The notes under the pieces: generated by a model
Database searches by the model: none
Told to the model about the DNA's origin: nothing
The model's input: only the letters and a program-made list of their open reading frames with translations
Source: Exiguobacterium sp. Helios
GTDB lineage: Bacteria; Bacillota; Bacilli; Exiguobacteriales; Exiguobacteriaceae
Assembly (NCBI RefSeq): GCF_014524545.1
Contig: NZ_CP053557.1
Span: 124,001 to 188,000, forward strand
Length of the DNA stretch: 64,000 bases
Direction: 5' to 3'
In this document: in pieces, positions 32,787-62,156 of the stretch
Layout of the letters: every line of letters starts with the position of its first letter
How positions within the stretch are numbered: the first letter of the stretch is position 1
Made by a program: the position numbers and the translations under genes

Positions 32787-33245
32787 TCATGTACGCATTT
32801 GACTTGCCTCTTCTTCCACACGACGGAGTAACCCTTGCACGATTTTTTCCGTTTCCCGTTCGCCGCCAAGCGACAGCAGGCTTCGTCCGACGAAATTCGC
32901 CCCTTCGTTTTTCCCGGTATAAATCAGCTGACAACTTTTTTCGTCGAGCCGCTTCAACGTAAAGGTCATCTCGAGCTTAAAGATTTTGGCAAGCGTAAAT
33001 CCAATCGTATTTTGTTTGAAATCCGGTTGATTTGTATAGGCAAAATCCGTCACGATATATGTCTCGAGGCGATTCCCCTGCATATACGTTTGCCGGTATG
33101 TCGAACCGACGACACCCGGTTTCCGTTCGATCACATCGTGCTGGACGACACCTGGAATCAGGCGTTGTAACCGATCGTGATCAAAGATATGCCAGGCTTC
33201 CTCGATTGGAACATCCAGTCTCTTTTCTTCATGCCACGTTACCAT
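32787..33245 (-). CDS. SRPBCC (START/polyketide-cyclase-like) protein
   Basis: A 152-residue protein with the SRPBCC helix-grip fold: an opening beta strand VTWHEEKRLDVPIEEAWHIF, a curved sheet, and a long C-terminal helix RETEKIVQGLLRRVEEEASQ. Residues such as LIPGVVQHDVIERKPGVVGS are typical of the ligand-pocket strands. Function could be binding of hydrophobic ligands or cyclase/coupling to a reductase; not predictable. AAAGGAGG selects 33245. It follows the S-box controlled operon behind a terminator, so it is separately transcribed. Confidence 0.8.
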   Translation of the reverse strand: MVTWHEEKRLDVPIEEAWHIFDHDRLQRLIPGVVQHDVIERKPGVVGSTYRQTYMQGNRLETYIVTDFAYTNQPDFKQNTIGFTLAKIFKLEMTFTLKRLDEKSCQLIYTGKNEGANFVGRSLLSLGGERETEKIVQGLLRRVEEEASQMRT

Positions 33246-33267
33246 CCCAACACCTCCTTTTACTGAA

Positions 33268-33321
33268 AAATACCCTGATGTGTGCAGTTCTAACTTCAGA
33301 CTACACACATGCAGGGTATTT
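33268..33321 (-). terminator. Hairpin, terminator of the S-box operon
   Basis: AAATACCCTG and CAGGGTATTT pair, and ATGTGTG/CACACAT extends the stem with one bulge. The minus strand ends in TTTTT (A run 33266-33270). It separates the ATP-grasp gene from the SRPBCC gene. Confidence 0.8.
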
Positions 33322-33347: not shown

Positions 33348-34295
33348 TTATTTTACAGTCTGACGTTCAAGGGCCGCACCGAGGAACTTCGCCAGTTCGA
33401 GCATGCCGAACTTACCGGCAGCTGCTTCCGCGTCTGAATTGTAATTCGTATTCGTATTGACGTCATACGTATAGATTGTTCCATCCGCATCCTTGATGAA
33501 CTCGATGCCGGCGACCGCGATCTGGTTCGCTTGCAGGAAGGCTTCATACTTTTGAATGATCGGATCATTAAATCCGTCGACGACTTTAAACTTCATCGGT
33601 GTTTGTGGGGCATCTTCCCCGACCGGGCAGAACAAGTCGTCAATGACACAGGCATCTGCCGGGCACAGTTCAAATCCTTCTGATGTGTCGACCTGGACAG
33701 CATAAACAAACTTCCCGCCGACGAACTCACAGCGCGTGATGTACGGTTCCGGTGCCTGGATATATTCTTGAATCAGCGTGATCCCGTCGACCGGTTCATC
33801 AAACGTTGGTCCATCAAGATATGTCTCAAGTGCTTCGATCGAATGGAACAACTGGACACCAAGTCCTTTTCCGGCACGGTTGTGTTTCGTGATAAACGAG
33901 GACACGCCGATGTTTTTCGCCGCTTCGACGATTTGATCACGCCCGACGGCAGCTGTCGTTTTCGGAACCCGGATACCGGCTTTTCGAAGGGCCGTATACT
34001 GATTGATTTTACTCACTTCAAGACGCAAGGCACGTGTTCCGTTAAAGACAGTCCGGTCGTGTTCCTCTAGCCACGCGAGTACCCCTTCCGTCAGTTCCGG
34101 GGCGTAGCGGTGCCCGCGCGTATGCGACGACGCACTCATCCGGCTGTAGAAGACGCCTTCTGGCGGGACTTCATCAAGCGGGACCTGTCCTTCATCGAGA
34201 TGCCACTGTTCATACGGCAACTCCAGTTCCTCGAGTCGTTTAATTAAATGGTCCGTCCATTCCTGGTTTTCGTGTAAGATATGAATTTTTGTCAT
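33348..34295 (-). CDS. RimK-like ATP-grasp ligase
   Basis: A 315-residue ATP-grasp protein. N-terminal Rossmann-like part (about 1-100) includes FYSRMSASSHTRGHRYAPE; the ATP-grasp domain has ITKHNRAGKGLGVQLF, ALRLEVSKINQY and the metal-binding ending YTYDVNTNTNYNSDAE. Relatives join an amino acid or peptide to a carboxylate with ATP. Its ATG overlaps the stop of the upstream flavin monooxygenase by four bases, so the two are coupled. Both are under an S-box leader, which links this ligase to sulfur metabolism. The actual substrate is unknown. Confidence 0.85.
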   Translation of the reverse strand: MTKIHILHENQEWTDHLIKRLEELELPYEQWHLDEGQVPLDEVPPEGVFYSRMSASSHTRGHRYAPELTEGVLAWLEEHDRTVFNGTRALRLEVSKINQYTALRKAGIRVPKTTAAVGRDQIVEAAKNIGVSSFITKHNRAGKGLGVQLFHSIEALETYLDGPTFDEPVDGITLIQEYIQAPEPYITRCEFVGGKFVYAVQVDTSEGFELCPADACVIDDLFCPVGEDAPQTPMKFKVVDGFNDPIIQKYEAFLQANQIAVAGIEFIKDADGTIYTYDVNTNTNYNSDAEAAAGKFGMLELAKFLGAALERQTVK

Positions 34296-35350
34296 TTGGT
34301 TTGACCTACCTTTCGTTTTTCTTCGACAAGCGGCATGACGTCGCGCGCGAAGCGTTCCATTTCTTCCAGTTGTGGTGAAAATTGAAGTAATAATAAGGAG
34401 ACACCCACCTGCTCAAACGCAAGAATCCGTTCGGCAATCTGTTCCGGTGTTCCAATCAAATCAGGACGGAGTCCGCGGTTCGAGACCGAATAATCGTTCC
34501 GTTTTACCTGCTGTTCGAGTTGTGATTTGCTGACGAAGTCGTCGTACCCGGCGTATCCGGCACTGTCTTCCTTGACGTCCGTAATTCGTTGCCATTCTTG
34601 AATAGCCTCTTCTTCCGTATCGCGGCAGATGATATAAGCAGCCAATCCAAAACTTTCAAGCGGCGGTTGCCCTGTCGCTTGTCGGCGCGCCTTCATATCC
34701 TCAATCTTAACGGACACTTCTTCCACTGTTCCGCCGTGCATGACATAAGCGTCACAATGATTGACGATGGTTTGTTTGCCGGCTTCACTTTCCCCGCCTG
34801 CGTACAACTTGATGCCCGGTCGTTGAACCGGCTTCGGATGCAGTTGCGTCTTCTCGAGCGTATAGTAGTTCCCGTCGAAGCTGTACGGCGAAGCATCTGC
34901 CCATAATCCTTTCATGATCGTGACAAACTCTTCCGTCCGCGCGTAGCGTTCGTCGTGAGCTGTGAAGATCCCGTTGTATTGCCGCGCTTCTTCTTCCCAC
35001 CAGGCAGAGACGACGTTTAACGTAAAGCGCCCGTGGCTAAGTTGATCGATGTTTGCTGCCATCTTCGCGGTCGTCGCCGGATTATGGAACCCCGGACGGA
35101 CCGCTGTCATGATTTCCAGTCGTTCCGTCGTCGCGGCAATCGCCGCTGCCGTCGTCCAGGCTTCAAGACTTGGTGCTTCAAGTCCTTTGATGTCATTTAA
35201 GTTCAATTCCGCAATCAAGGTCGTTGAAAACCCGATTTGTTCAGCCGTTTGTGCGACCTGTTTCGCATAATCGAATGTCGCCGGCATCTGTTCGTCCTCG
35301 ACATTCCGTAACCATCCGCCAAAAATCGGTAACCAAAATCCATACTCCAT
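34292..35350 (-). CDS. LLM-class flavin-dependent monooxygenase (SsuD/SfnG-like)
   Basis: A 352-residue bacterial-luciferase-like (LLM) enzyme. It begins MEYGFWLPIFGGWLRNVEDE, has the flavin-binding strand LNVVSAWWEEEARQYNG and the family block GIKLYAGGESEAGKQT, and ends with a helix of the TIM barrel. Its best look-alikes are FMNH2-dependent sulfonate or sulfone monooxygenases (SsuD, SfnG), which release sulfite for Cys/Met synthesis. AAGGGGGA precedes the ATG. Control by a SAM riboswitch supports a sulfur-scavenging role. The flavin reductase partner is not in this operon. Confidence 0.88.
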   Translation of the reverse strand: MEYGFWLPIFGGWLRNVEDEQMPATFDYAKQVAQTAEQIGFSTTLIAELNLNDIKGLEAPSLEAWTTAAAIAATTERLEIMTAVRPGFHNPATTAKMAANIDQLSHGRFTLNVVSAWWEEEARQYNGIFTAHDERYARTEEFVTIMKGLWADASPYSFDGNYYTLEKTQLHPKPVQRPGIKLYAGGESEAGKQTIVNHCDAYVMHGGTVEEVSVKIEDMKARRQATGQPPLESFGLAAYIICRDTEEEAIQEWQRITDVKEDSAGYAGYDDFVSKSQLEQQVKRNDYSVSNRGLRPDLIGTPEQIAERILAFEQVGVSLLLLQFSPQLEEMERFARDVMPLVEEKRKVGQTK

Positions 35351-35376
35351 CCGTCATATCCCCCTTGTAAAAAAAA

Positions 35377-35407
35377 GTCGCTCTTCTCGAAAATCGAAAA
35401 GAGCGAC
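35377..35407 (-). terminator. S-box terminator hairpin
   Basis: GTCGCTCTTCTCGA and TCGAAAAGAGCGAC form a 14-base stem with one mismatch. The minus strand then has a T tract (A run 35368-35376). It lies between the SAM riboswitch and the monooxygenase start and is the expression platform. Confidence 0.9.
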
Positions 35408-35422
35408 GGATTAATCATGTCT

Positions 35423-35528
35423 GCTCTTATCTGTAAAGGAAAAGATTCCTTTAGGAAGTAGCACCTTCCGCTGCTAGCGGGGTTGCTGAAGTGTCTTCGG
35501 GCCATTCCCTCGACTTCTCTTGATAAGA
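35423..35528 (-). promoter_or_regulatory. SAM-I riboswitch (S-box)
   Basis: On the minus strand the core S-box blocks occur in order: CTTATCAAGAG, GAGGGAATGGCCCGAAGACA, CAGCAACC, GGTGCTACTTCC and GATAAGAG. The first and last close the P1 stem, and a terminator follows. S-box leaders switch transcription off when S-adenosylmethionine is abundant. It controls the flavin monooxygenase and ATP-grasp genes, so these are induced under methionine or sulfur starvation. Confidence 0.95.
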
Positions 35529-35617
35529 ATTATTGGAATTATCGTACACTTTTTAGCAGAGTAAAGCAATCATTAAACCTTGTTTTCCAATCGGAATTAA
35601 AAAGATATTCAAAAAAA

Positions 35618-49204: not shown

Positions 49205-49398
49205 ATCGATGAGGTAGAGGCGCGGTGTTGATGAGTATTTGGTCTGAGGATGACAACGAAGACGATCAAAGAAAGGTGATGCCGCCGAAGTATCGTCACG
49301 TGTCAGACGTGACCATGCTGGTCGAATCGGGAAAGACCCGTTCGATTGCCATACGCATGTTGTATGGAGCGCTCCAATTCGGCTAAGAAAGACGCATC
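49205..49398 (+). promoter_or_regulatory. Lysine riboswitch (L-box)
   Basis: The leader has the L-box signature blocks in order: GTAGAGGCGCGG, ATGAGTATTTGG, GAGGATGA, AAAGGTGATGCCGCCGAAG and TGCTGG, then two hairpin loops and the P5 pair CCATAC/GTATGG. The order and spacing match the lysC leader of B. subtilis. A strong terminator follows, then the NhaC-type transporter gene. When lysine is abundant the transporter is switched off. The 52- and 33-codon frames inside this leader are not genes. Confidence 0.9.
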
Positions 49399-49399
49399 C

Positions 49400-49440
49400 A
49401 GCAAGGGTGTCGGCTTTGTTGCCGGTGCCCTTGCTTTTTT
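49400..49440 (+). terminator. L-box terminator hairpin
   Basis: AGCAAGGG and CCCTTGCT pair, extended by TCGGC/GCCGG, and are followed by TTTTTT. It is the expression platform of the lysine riboswitch. Confidence 0.9.
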
Positions 49441-49487
49441 CTGTGCAACGGGTCTCATCTTCTAAAAAAGGAGGAGGAACCACAACA

Positions 49488-51071
49488 ATGGTCAACTATT
49501 CAGATTCTATCGTTGCGCTTGTCCCGGCAATCGTTGCCATCGTTTTAGCAATTGTCACACGAAAAGTCGTCATTTCACTTGGTGTCGGCATTTTGATTGG
49601 TGCCTTACTGCTTCACAGCTTCAATCCGGTGGATACCGTTGTTTATCTCGGAAAAAACATCTTCAGTCTGTTTTGGGCAGACGGTGCGTTAAATGAATGG
49701 AATGTCTTATTACTCGTTTTCTTACTGTTACTCGGTGTCTTGTCTACACTGATACAAACATCCGGCGGTGCCCGTGCTTTCGGCGAATGGGCGACGACAC
49801 ATGTCAAGACGGCACGTGGTGCAAGGCTTGCCGCTTTCGGATTAGGTATTTTGATTTTCATCGATGATTACTTTAACAGTCTGGCCGTCGGAAATGTCAG
49901 TCGTCCGTTAACGGATCGTCGCGGTGTCTCGCGCGCCAAACTGGCGTATATCATCGATTCCACCGCTGCACCGGTCTGTGTCATCAGTCCATTATCGAGC
50001 TGGGGTGCCTTCATCATCTCGATTATCGCAGGAATCTTGACGACCCATTCAATCACTGATTACTCGGCGTTCAGTGCGTTCCTGATGATTGTGCCGTTAA
50101 ACTTCTACGCCATCTTCGCTTTGTTACTGACACTCTACATCGCCTATACGGGAATTGCCGTTGGACCGATGCGGACGCACGAGTTGCGGGCCTTACAAGG
50201 TGAATTGTTTGACGCCAACAAAGGGACACCAATGGGGATGGCAGAAGAAGTCAAGGAACACGATGGCGGTAAAGTCCGTGACTTGGTTGTTCCAATCGTC
50301 GTGTTAGTCATTGCGACCATCACAGCCCTTCTTTGGACAGGTGCCCAGGCACTTGCGGCTGACGATCGGCCTTTTTCGTTAATCGGCGCCTTTGAAGCAA
50401 CAGACGTGACGCGCTCACTTGTTTCTGGTGTCATCATCAGTTTAGTCGTTGCGTTCCTGATGATGATCGGTCGGAAAATTCCGGCACGTGATTACCGCAT
50501 CAGTATCTGGGCGGGCATGAAATCGATGTGGCCCGCTGTCGTTATTCTGTTGTTTGCCTGGACGATCATCGCGGTCATCGGTGACATGAAGACCGGGGAT
50601 TATCTCGCAAGTTTCATCAGCAAATCGATTCCCGCTTCTTATCTGCCGTTCCTTCTATTCTTGATTGCCAGTATCATGGCATTCTCGACCGGAACGAGTT
50701 GGGGGACGTTCGGAATCATGTTACCGATCGGAGCCGATTTGATCATGGCGGTTGATCCAAGTCTGTTGTTACCAACACTTGCTGCTGTTCTTGCCGGATC
50801 TGTCTTCGGGGACCATTGTTCACCGATTTCCGATACGACGATTCTCAGTTCGACCGGTGCCGGTTCGCATCATATTGATCACGTCACGACCCAGTTGCCA
50901 TATGCCTTGATTGGTGCAGTGACGTCGGCTGTCGGATATCTCGTACTCGGTGTCACCGGTTCGTCCCTATTCGGCTTCATCGGTGCCCTGATCGCCTTCG
51001 TGATTTTCCTCGTCATGCTGAACGTCCTGTCACGACGCGGCGAAGTCCCGTCGCAGCTACGTTCGGAGTAA
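49488..51071 (+). CDS. NhaC-type transporter, probable lysine transporter (LysW-like)
   Basis: A 527-residue integral membrane protein of the NhaC Na+/H+ antiporter superfamily with about 12 hydrophobic segments. Landmarks are FIDDYFNSLAVGNVSRPLTD, STAAPVCVISPLSSWGAFI, GTSWGTFGIMLPIGADL and GDHCSPISDTTILSSTGAG. Members of this superfamily under L-box control are known or predicted lysine importers. The position directly after the riboswitch terminator makes this the most likely role. AAAAAGGAGGAGG precedes the ATG. A strong terminator follows. Confidence 0.9.
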   Translation: MVNYSDSIVALVPAIVAIVLAIVTRKVVISLGVGILIGALLLHSFNPVDTVVYLGKNIFSLFWADGALNEWNVLLLVFLLLLGVLSTLIQTSGGARAFGEWATTHVKTARGARLAAFGLGILIFIDDYFNSLAVGNVSRPLTDRRGVSRAKLAYIIDSTAAPVCVISPLSSWGAFIISIIAGILTTHSITDYSAFSAFLMIVPLNFYAIFALLLTLYIAYTGIAVGPMRTHELRALQGELFDANKGTPMGMAEEVKEHDGGKVRDLVVPIVVLVIATITALLWTGAQALAADDRPFSLIGAFEATDVTRSLVSGVIISLVVAFLMMIGRKIPARDYRISIWAGMKSMWPAVVILLFAWTIIAVIGDMKTGDYLASFISKSIPASYLPFLLFLIASIMAFSTGTSWGTFGIMLPIGADLIMAVDPSLLLPTLAAVLAGSVFGDHCSPISDTTILSSTGAGSHHIDHVTTQLPYALIGAVTSAVGYLVLGVTGSSLFGFIGALIAFVIFLVMLNVLSRRGEVPSQLRSE

Positions 51072-59661: not shown

Positions 59662-60594
59662 TTAACCGATTGTCACCTTCTGTTGAATCCGCTCAATCTG
59701 CTCGGGTGTCGTACGGCAACATCCGCCGATCAACCGGGCACCTGCGGCATACCATTCCGGAGCAATGTCTTCGAAAGCCGTACACACTGCTTCACCGGAC
59801 CAGGTCTTACTGACCGGATCATACTGCTCACCGGAATTCGGATAGACGATAATCGGTACATCGGTCAGTTGTTTTAATGTCGTGATGAACTCTGTCGCAA
59901 TCGATGCCGGAAAACAGTTCGCGCCGATTGCCGCCAGTTGCGGGTGCTCCCCTAATGCCTTGATACACTCACTCAACGGTGTTCCTTCACTGATGTGTGT
60001 TGCGTCACGCAGGGAAAAGGCAAGCCAGGCCGACTGATCCGGAAATTCTTCGAGCAGCCGGAACAGCACTTCGGCTTCCTGCAAGGAGGGAATCGTCTCA
60101 AATGCCAACACGTCCGCACCTGCCGCGATTAACGCTTCCAGACGAGGACGGTGGAAAGCTTCAAGTTGCGCATCGTCGACTCCGTAATGACCGATGTATT
60201 CGGATCCGTCCGAAAGATAGGCACCGTAAGGACCAATCGATCCCGCAATCAAAGCGTGATCCGCTGCCGGTCCGGTTTCCGCACGCGCCTGCTGTGCCAG
60301 ATAGACCGTTTGTTTCATCAGTTCAATCGCTTCCTCTTCTTTAATCCCCCGGCTGCTGAAGCCGGCGACACTCGCTTGGTAGCTGGACGTGATGGCACAA
60401 TCCGCCCCGATTTTAAAATAATCCGCATGGACGCGGTGAATCTGTTCCGGTTCTTCAAGCAGTACCCGGGCCGACCAAAGCGGATCATCGAGATTTCTCC
60501 CATGGCGTTCAAGTTCCGTCGCCAGTGCTCCGTCCAATAAAATATAGGGTTTTTCTTTTAACAGTTGTTCAACTGGATTGTTGTTCTTTGACAT
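59662..60594 (-). CDS. mmuM: Homocysteine S-methyltransferase
   Basis: A 310-residue zinc-dependent TIM-barrel enzyme with [12 protein letters not shown] at the N-terminus, ANCFPAS in the middle and GGCCRT near the C-terminus, the three Cys that bind zinc. It transfers a methyl group from S-methylmethionine (or SAM) to homocysteine, making methionine. The start at 60594 is chosen from the ribosome site GGAGTG; it overlaps the 3' end of mmuP by 26 bases, so translation is coupled. Both are downstream of an S-box. Confidence 0.95.
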
Positions 60595-61969
60595 CTTCCA
60601 CACTCCGTTTCCATGATGTTTTTGTCAGATGATGAACGATGTAACAGACCGCGATAAACGGAACCCCGAAATAGAGGGCGACCCGTTGCGTCGGATCAAA
60701 GGCGATTCCGATCAATGAAGCCAAACACATTAAAAACGACAGAATCGGTACAAACGGATACCAGGGCGTCCGGTAAACCAAATCGTTTAGATCATGCCCC
60801 TCTTGCAGATAGCGCTTGCGGAACATGAACTGTGAGGCGCTGATACTCATCCAGACAACGACGACTGCCAGTCCCGAGATCGAGACAAGCGCAATGTAGA
60901 CGGAACCCGGTGCATAGACGCTGGAGAACAGGGCAAGCAGACCACCGAGCATACTGAAGAGAACGGCACGTATCGGCACTCCGCTCGCATTTAATTTAGA
61001 AAAGTACGGCGTAATCATCCGTTGATCGGATAAAGACCAGAGCATCCGTGATGCGGCATACAGACCCGAGTTCGCTGCTGACAAAATCGCGGTCAGGATG
61101 ACGAAGTTCATGATGTCTGCTGCAAACGGAAGACCGATCCGTTCAAACACAGCAACGAATGGACTTTCAAGCACTCCTTTTGAATCATTTGGTAACAGAA
61201 TCGCAAGAACAATGATCGTCCCGACAAAAAATAAGACGAGCCGGAAGACTGTTGTTCGAATGGCGAGAGGAACCGTCCGTTTCGGATCGACCGCCTCACC
61301 TGCTGCAATCCCGATTAACTCTGTTCCGGAATAGGCAAAGTTAACGGCAAGCATCGTCATCAAGATCGCGAACGCTCCGTTCGGAAACAGGCCCCCCTCC
61401 GTCAACGGAGCGAGAAGCGGTGCTTGTGAGCCGTCCGCGAGGGGCAAGAATCCGACGATTGCTGCTGTTCCTAAGACGATGAACACTAAAATCGTCAGCA
61501 CCTTGACGGCAGAAAACCAAAATTCAACTTCCGCGAACAAGCGGACCGTCAAGACATTGATGCCTAAAATCATGACGACGAATAAAGCACTGAACAGCCA
61601 GACCGGAACATCCGGAAACCAGCGTTGCATCAATAAACCGGCTGCCGTAAATTCCGAACCGAGCGCGACCGTCCAAGTCAGCCAGTAAAGCCAGGCGACG
61701 GTATAGCCTGTTCCGGATCCAATATATTTCGTCGCGTAGCTGTGAAAGGCACCCGTCTCCGGCATATGTACCGCCAGCTCCCCTAGACAAAGCATTACCA
61801 GATAAACCGCCAGCGCTCCGACCAGGTAAGATAAAATCGTGCCGACCCGACCGGCCTGCTCGAGCGTATAGCCTGTACTTAAAAATAATCCGGTCCCGAT
61901 GACACCGCCGAGTGACAACATGACGATATGCCGGGATTCCATTTTCCGCCGAAACGTTCCTTCTTTCAT
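60569..61969 (-). CDS. mmuP: Amino-acid permease, S-methylmethionine permease-like
   Basis: A 466-residue APC-superfamily transporter with 12 helices. It has the N-terminal [21 protein letters not shown] and [26 protein letters not shown], like MmuP/YbgF and GabP. Its coupling to mmuM and the S-box leader point to S-methylmethionine import. GGAGGAGC precedes the ATG (minus strand). It is the first gene of the operon, with a long leader holding the riboswitch. Confidence 0.9.
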
Positions 61970-62011
61970 TGCTCCTCCACACTCCTCTTTTTCTCGTTAA
62001 ACTAAAAAAAA

Positions 62012-62035
62012 ACGCACCCACATGCATGGGTGCGT
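62012..62035 (-). terminator. S-box terminator hairpin of the mmuP-mmuM operon
   Basis: ACGCACCCA and TGGGTGCGT form a perfect 9-base stem around CATGCA; the minus strand then runs into nine T residues (A run 62004-62012). Confidence 0.92.
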
Positions 62036-62053
62036 CGGTCGACAATCAAAGGA

Positions 62054-62156
62054 AGCTTATCGATCGGGTACAACACCCGCAGGAATTAGCACAGTATCTT
62101 TCGACCTGTTGCTGAGGCTTCAAAGGGCCAGTCCCTCCACCTCTCTGGATAAGAAT
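62054..62156 (-). promoter_or_regulatory. SAM-I riboswitch (S-box)
   Basis: On the minus strand: CTTATCCAGAGAGGTGGAGG, GACTGGCCCTTTGAAGCC, CAGCAACAGG, GTGCTAATTCC and CGATAAGC. These are the S-box blocks in order, closing with P1. One change, CAACAGG for the usual CAACCGG/CC, is normal variation. A terminator follows before mmuP. SAM shortage should turn the methionine-forming operon on. Confidence 0.95.

Follow-up and report, generated by a model that had tools for sequence, protein, structure and literature searches.

The window analysed here is a stretch of 64,000 nucleotides from Exiguobacterium sp. Helios (contig NZ_CP053557.1, positions 124,001 to 188,000). On its reverse strand lies a short operon in which a riboswitch for S-adenosylmethionine (SAM) precedes the genes of a luciferase-like monooxygenase (hereafter LLM), dependent on flavin mononucleotide (FMN), and of an ATP-grasp ligase. 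The switch, the enzyme classes, the pairing of the two genes across genomes and the link to methionine genes were all obtained by computation. In the direction of transcription the features are:

35538-35565, minus strand: sigma-70-like promoter, TTTACT, 16 nt, GATAAT (a consensus match only, 9/12)
35424-35529, minus strand: SAM-I (S-box) riboswitch aptamer (RF00162, 90.4 bits, E 3.1e-20)
35377-35407, minus strand: intrinsic terminator of the leader, 14-pair stem with a T8 tail
34292-35350, minus strand: gene 1, LLM, 352 aa (PF00296)
34292-34295, minus strand: ATGA in which the stop of gene 1 and the start of gene 2 overlap, visible in the sequence itself
33348-34295, minus strand: gene 2, ATP-grasp ligase, 315 aa (PF08443, RimK)
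33268-33321, minus strand: terminator-like hairpin 3' of the ligase gene, followed by a T run (-34.3 kcal/mol, z -5.2)

The leader covered all of model positions 1-108 of RF00162 and exceeded its gathering score of 44.4 bits. Leader and terminator together folded at -57.4 kcal/mol (z -4.7), and in our reading of the sequence helix P1 of the S-box has a 3' strand, AAGAGC, that is complementary to the 5' arm of the terminator (GCTCTT), the usual antiterminator arrangement. The promoter scan returned five such sites vs. 2.9 in shuffled sequence, and the candidate's position agrees with the start of the S-box. The hairpin downstream of the ligase gene was picked up neither by the terminator scan nor by the inverted-repeat finder; since it lies there, LLM and ligase look like a two-gene unit. 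A same-strand open reading frame (ORF) at 32787-33308 was rejected as a third operon gene, because the hairpin lies in between and the ORF starts inside or beyond it. An earlier note on this DNA had described an S-box leader with terminator and a two-gene operon with overlapping ATGA, holding neither a flavin reductase gene nor a sulfonate transporter gene. All of this was confirmed, and no gene of either kind was found in the two-gene operon.

Two sets of genomes were used to follow the pair. In the first, loci were fetched for the best 80 of 96 confirmed ligase relatives; those with 93-99% identity belonged to Exiguobacterium. The second was a class sample of 299 genomes of Bacilli from 118 genera, from which 6 weak or fragmentary ligase matches and 2 LLM matches of at most 49% identity were dropped, and in which 2 ligase and 3 LLM genes with in-frame stops and 1 gene cut by a contig end were kept. 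LLM adjoined the ligase in 45 of the 80 relatives, 43 times in the order LLM-ligase and twice as ligase-LLM (Alicyclobacillus, loci L073 and L074); the contigs of L074 and L088 stop immediately upstream of the ligase gene, where a preceding gene or S-box could not show. In the class sample 44 genomes had both genes, 2 (one genus) had LLM only, 30 the ligase only and 223 neither (Fisher 3e-30). Counted by genus (n = 118) the figures were 18, 1, 13 and 86 (Fisher 4e-12); both Fisher figures are inflated by shared ancestry, and the genus count is the safer one. The ligase was thus present in 44/46 LLM genomes vs. 74/299 overall. Same-strand neighbours were found in 35 of the 44 two-gene genomes (28 LLM-ligase, 7 ligase-LLM), the genes lay apart in 8, and in 1 they were split by contig ends. 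Within the genus of the window the ligase occurred in 18 of 19 genomes, with LLM adjacent in all 18 fetched loci. The functional link between monooxygenase and ligase that the earlier note had proposed, and that unlinked genes in other genomes would speak against, is therefore mostly upheld.

Genes flanking the pair vary from lineage to lineage. Because both gene orders occur, the pair was probably assembled more than once, and in a quick ligase tree of 83 rows (L074 left out, four loci from the genome search added), which has many weak forks, the adjacent or alone state changed at least 11 times. As LLM is seldom found without the ligase and the ligase often without LLM, it is LLM that seems to depend on the ligase. 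In one genome (G140, L165:5001-7574) the S-box is followed by the gene of a 425-aa protein weakly similar to ATP-grasp enzymes and then by LLM, and there is no orthologue of the window ligase. The best NCBIfam match of the 425-aa protein had an E of 2e-11; Pfam gave no match and the PDB a single one, at 0.0047. Among 41 genomes of its family a close match was seen only in its own genome, with weak matches in 3 more, and a single-sequence structure model (mean predicted local distance difference test score 36.7) was uninformative. This single case is suggestive of a non-orthologous replacement of the ligase.

Riboswitch control of the pair was surveyed with an S-box covariance model built from the 11 S-boxes of the window's own genome. 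An S-box stood upstream of 29 of the 45 adjacent pairs among the ligase relatives, and before the LLM operon in 28/46 class-sample LLM loci, representing 10/19 genera (L253 is cut at a contig end). Where the two genes lay apart the S-box was on the LLM side in 8/8 genomes, and the ligase loci scanned in 5 of these 8 (L168-L172) had none. Six of the genes-apart genomes (L157-L162), of Tumebacillus type, have a single operon of S-box, bifunctional homocysteine S-methyltransferase/methylenetetrahydrofolate reductase (MTHFR) and LLM, and carry the ligase at another place; this order was read by profile in 3 genomes and by tblastn in 6. The S-box before 28 of 46 LLM loci and before all eight unlinked ones, together with the six homocysteine methyltransferase/MTHFR operons, ties LLM to methionine.

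LLM is a clear member of the luciferase-like monooxygenases (PF00296, 205.5 bits, cut-off 27.9). Its closest solved structure, compared by sequence only, is 3rao, matched strongly over the whole length (640 bits), and on this similarity we place the two in the same orthologous family. The PDB name of 3rao, 'putative' luciferase-like monooxygenase, states no function; the entry is mentioned in PMC5819316. LLM shares its superfamily with the group C FMN monooxygenases SsuD/MsuD and SfnG, and the FMN-phosphate residues of MsuD are kept (H132, R135, Y136, S188). However, it missed the curated cut-offs of both TIGR03565 (SsuD; 188.6 vs. 518.2 bits) and TIGR04021 (SfnG; 258.1 vs. 382.95 bits), and the 'SsuD/SfnG-type' label of the earlier note holds at the level of the superfamily, not of either family.

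The active site differs as well. In MsuD the sulfonate site consists of Trp195, Arg225, Arg296 and an RGGA loop, and changing any one of three residues to alanine, W195 and R225 among them, left no measurable sulfite formation (excerpt of PMC8234197). In the window LLM, W195 is replaced by H205 and R225 by A237, the latter in 49/50 family rows with a gap in the remaining one (the distant homologue L167 not counted). H10 and H227 have become F10 and Y239. The RGGA loop is not present; R292 (48/50 rows) lies nearby, in a part where the alignment is uncertain. Conversely, E48 and the block L51-N-D-I-K-G56 are invariant in the LLM family, leaving out L167 and L065, where SsuD/MsuD show an alignment gap. 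With these active-site differences and the missed cut-offs, an identity of LLM as alkanesulfonate or dimethylsulfone monooxygenase was rejected. The replaced sulfonate residues and the invariant E48/L51-G56 block may reflect a pocket for a polar, amino-acid-like substrate.

The ligase matched PF08443 (RimK) at 31.4 bits against a cut-off of 21 and missed that of TIGR00768, the RimK family of alpha-L-glutamate ligases (55.9 vs. 143.4 bits). By these scores and its motifs we assign it to a separate ATP-grasp subfamily near RimK, LysX and ArgX. According to an excerpt of PMC10433800, the GSWGR motif of LysX/ArgX recognises the tail of the carrier LysW; in the window ligase the aligned residues are RAGKG. 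The operon also leaves no room for a LysW-type carrier, given its overlapping genes and the leader and terminator on its flanks; this covers the operon itself, not nearby ORFs of <80 aa or the remaining genome. Unlike these relatives, the ligase has its own Cys-containing active-site loop. Residues 208-231 form a loop with an invariant C-P-A-D-x-C and a third, near-invariant Cys, which may serve as a metal site, a redox switch or in a covalent step. The CPADxC loop is located at what we take to be the position of the RimK substrate loop.

As in the SAM-I regulon of Bacillota, where such an aptamer and terminator are familiar, the other S-box genes of the window's genome are mostly of textbook methionine metabolism: by their family matches they serve methionine uptake, salvage and repair. 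The 11 S-boxes lead three metN-like genes (356-429 bits, below the model cut-off of 499.7), an mmuP-like gene with mmuM, mtnW, mtnK, msrA, metK, an NhaC-like transporter gene, an alpha/beta-hydrolase-like gene and the LLM-ligase pair. One of these lies in the window too: a second S-box (62054-62155, minus strand, 81.9 bits) heads a unit at 59662-62155 (minus strand) that encodes an S-methylmethionine-permease-like protein (712.9 bits vs. a cut-off of 716) and the homocysteine S-methyltransferase MmuM (422.6 vs. 215 bits). Another S-box precedes msrA, for peptide-methionine sulfoxide reductase (198 vs. 108 bits; G000:C1:666655-669758, L010), and would place the repair of oxidised methionine under SAM control. 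What sets the window operon apart from the known regulon is the FMN monooxygenase and ATP-grasp ligase as a member, of which we found no description in the open-licence literature, although absence from print is not thereby proven.

A search for the catalytic domain of MetE (PF01717) succeeded in 10 of 14 control genomes, but neither in the window's genome nor in a single one of the 38 family genomes examined. No MetH with PF02574 was found in the window's genome, where MmuM is the sole match to that domain. PF01053 had 5 matches there, one of them strong: a cystathionine gamma-lyase/homocysteine desulfhydrase (679.9 vs. 594 bits) encoded behind luxS; two more were barely above the cut-off (36-37 bits). 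As no MetE domain was found in the 38 family genomes and MmuM is the only PF02574 protein of its own, the bacterium is likely a methionine auxotroph; a literature search on methionine auxotrophy in Exiguobacterium returned no paper that looked related. Judged by gene content, the cell probably takes up or salvages its methionine and can draw cysteine from it. With no MetE or MetH found, and with cystathionine gamma-lyase as the only strong PF01053 protein, sulfite could hardly become methionine or relieve a shortage of SAM. This argument on methionine synthesis is one of gene content and covers the window's bacterium only; genes of methionine-synthase type do occur at locus L035 and in the Tumebacillus types.

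We hypothesize that LLM and the ligase form a methionine-salvage pathway which is controlled by the SAM-I riboswitch and depends on the ligase, an explanation that we prefer and hold tentatively. When SAM is low, antitermination at the S-box would allow both enzymes to be made. The ligase, whose fold and metal ligands are as in RimK, LysX and ArgX, which couple a carboxylate and an amine via an acyl phosphate, would join a sulfur-containing amino acid or acid to an amino acid by an amide bond and thereby cap a reactive amine or carboxyl group. LLM, supplied with reduced FMN by a general flavin reductase, would then oxidise the carbon next to the sulfur (or nitrogen) of the capped compound and split it, and a peptidase would hydrolyse the amide to yield methionine or an immediate precursor of it. 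Three parts of this scheme are inferred: a methionine derivative as the substrate, an amino acid as the cap, and ligation as the step that precedes oxidation.

A precedent for capping is offered by the Yxe and Cmo systems of Bacillus, in which, as far as an excerpt of PMC10863075 describes them, a group C FMN monooxygenase splits a sulfur amino acid with a capped nitrogen at a C-S bond. The substrate of YxeK is N-acetyl-S-(2-succino)cysteine, and in the Cmo pathway an S-alkyl-cysteine is acetylated, oxidised, cleaved and deacetylated (same excerpt). By analogy, an amino-acid cap might replace the N-acetyl group at the window locus. The two differ in that Yxe and Cmo cap by N-acetylation, removed at the end in Cmo, whereas the window operon has a ligase and an S-box as regulator. 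Neither an acetyltransferase nor a deacetylase gene accompanies the monooxygenase in the two-gene operon, to which this check was confined, and the likeness extends to the way of working only.

Put less specifically, the locus would be a sulfur-salvage operon built around a flavin monooxygenase, of a kind that has a ligase as its unexpected partner and is often SAM-switched. A more far-reaching form, in which a new ATP-grasp subfamily aminoacylates a methionine-type compound and an LLM family devoted to it, often SAM-switched, oxidatively frees the methionine as a widespread organosulfur salvage of Bacilli, strikes us as possible and rather doubtful. The earlier note had suggested an undescribed sulfur-salvage route. 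No description of such a route was found, and its version from sulfonate to sulfite is not supported; its interpretation as a whole is partly supported. The pair places the LLM family of 3rao and the ATP-grasp subfamily in a common biological context, with a regulation that is open to study. Given that the pair spans many lineages of Bacilli, that LLM seldom lacks the ligase and that no MetE was found in the window's family, a natural but so far unrecognised source of methionine may be the substrate.

Several observations weigh against the proposed salvage pathway. Not every pair is under SAM control: 16 of the 45 adjacent pairs were negative both by our own model and by Rfam, ten of them from Planococcus, Planomicrobium and Indiicoccus, and three Planococcus genomes of this set have 10-14 S-boxes elsewhere. 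An S-box was likewise missing from 18/46 class-sample LLM loci and from 17 further ligase loci, 2 of which are LLM pairs. Among ligase relatives, only 2 of 35 ligase genes without an adjacent LLM had one; at L037 an S-box stands directly before a lone ligase, and at L063 one precedes a metQ-like gene whose end is ~350 bases ahead of the ligase. The ligase occurs without LLM in 30 of 74 ligase genomes, among them every one of the 14 that the sample holds from the sister genus. Since such genomes are common and their ligase rarely has an S-box, the ligase appears to have some use of its own. Genome G193 has an S-box and LLM, without the ligase and without the other ATP-grasp-like gene seen in G140. 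The two-gene operon holds no deacylase or peptidase gene, and our literature search found no experimental work on any member of the LLM or ligase family.

Ten of the S-box-less pairs (L021, L025, L026, L029, L031, L041, L042, L045, L046, L052) have a dyad-like element in common, CCNAGTT..CT.GTA, which lies close to the promoter and ~60-110 bases upstream of LLM. When four genomes were searched for this pattern, allowing at most 2 mismatches, the reversed control pattern matched more often than the element itself, and beside the 30 matches that were read no sulfur gene was recognised except the pair itself. A shared regulator site for the Planococcus, Planomicrobium and Indiicoccus pairs was not supported by this search.

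Other functions of the pair were considered. The ligase could act like LysX/ArgX or RimK and load a carrier or the C-terminus of a protein with glutamates or with the amino acid that is the substrate, LLM then working on the carrier-bound substrate or being itself the modified protein. We regard this as unlikely in view of the RAGKG that replaces GSWGR, the CPADxC loop at the presumed substrate-loop position and the lack of space for a carrier gene in the operon.

The pair might also build a small methionine-derived product, such as a signal, a metallophore or a peptide, with the S-box merely matching the supply of methionine. Biosynthetic gene sets commonly combine an ATP-grasp ligase with a monooxygenase for tailoring, and the finding of the ligase alone in 30 of 74 genomes would agree with this. 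Yet induction at low SAM would consume methionine when it is scarce, no further gene closely trails the pair on its strand across lineages, and in the six Tumebacillus-type genomes LLM shares its operon with a methionine-synthase-type gene. This function, too, is improbable.

The earlier note had favoured a release of sulfite from sulfonates or sulfones by LLM. In this scheme LLM desulfonates alkanesulfonates or sulfones, the sulfite is turned into cysteine and methionine, and the ligase serves to recycle or store a sulfur compound linked to a peptide. The nearest named families of LLM are indeed SfnG (258 bits) and SsuD (189 bits), and at L035 the third gene downstream of the pair is for a binding protein of the SsuA family (191.9 bits against a cut-off of 163.5), followed by a permease-like ORF that was not scanned. 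Nevertheless, the W195 and R225 replacements with the other active-site changes, the missed cut-offs (258 vs. 383 bits for SfnG) and the failure to find MetE or MetH, with which sulfite could relieve a SAM shortage, speak against sulfite release, and we judge the whole scheme quite unlikely. The L035 locus (L035:3127-11299) has in addition a divergent second S-box before a methionine-synthase-type gene.

A further explanation sees the ligase as a glutamylating enzyme for folate or a similar cofactor, and LLM as the source of one-carbon units (formaldehyde) or methanethiol for methionine synthesis. RimK-fold ligases are known for archaeal pterins, and LLM-type methyl-sulfide monooxygenases release formaldehyde and methanethiol; the position of LLM behind homocysteine methyltransferase/MTHFR in the Tumebacillus types would fit. 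It is nonetheless very unlikely for the window's bacterium, in which no MetE or MetH was found to use methyl-folate and the strong PF01053 protein is a cystathionine gamma-lyase and not an O-acetylhomoserine sulfhydrylase, the two other matches being weak. That two methionine-responsive genes without a joint function stand side by side by chance is most improbable: each does occur without the other (2 genomes with LLM only, 30 with the ligase only), but both gene orders exist, flanks are lineage-specific and both genes are retained when unlinked.

Elsewhere in the window (49207-51071, plus strand) a lysine riboswitch (106 bits) stands directly before the gene of a 554-aa membrane transporter of Na+/H+ antiporter type, which is perhaps a lysine transporter.

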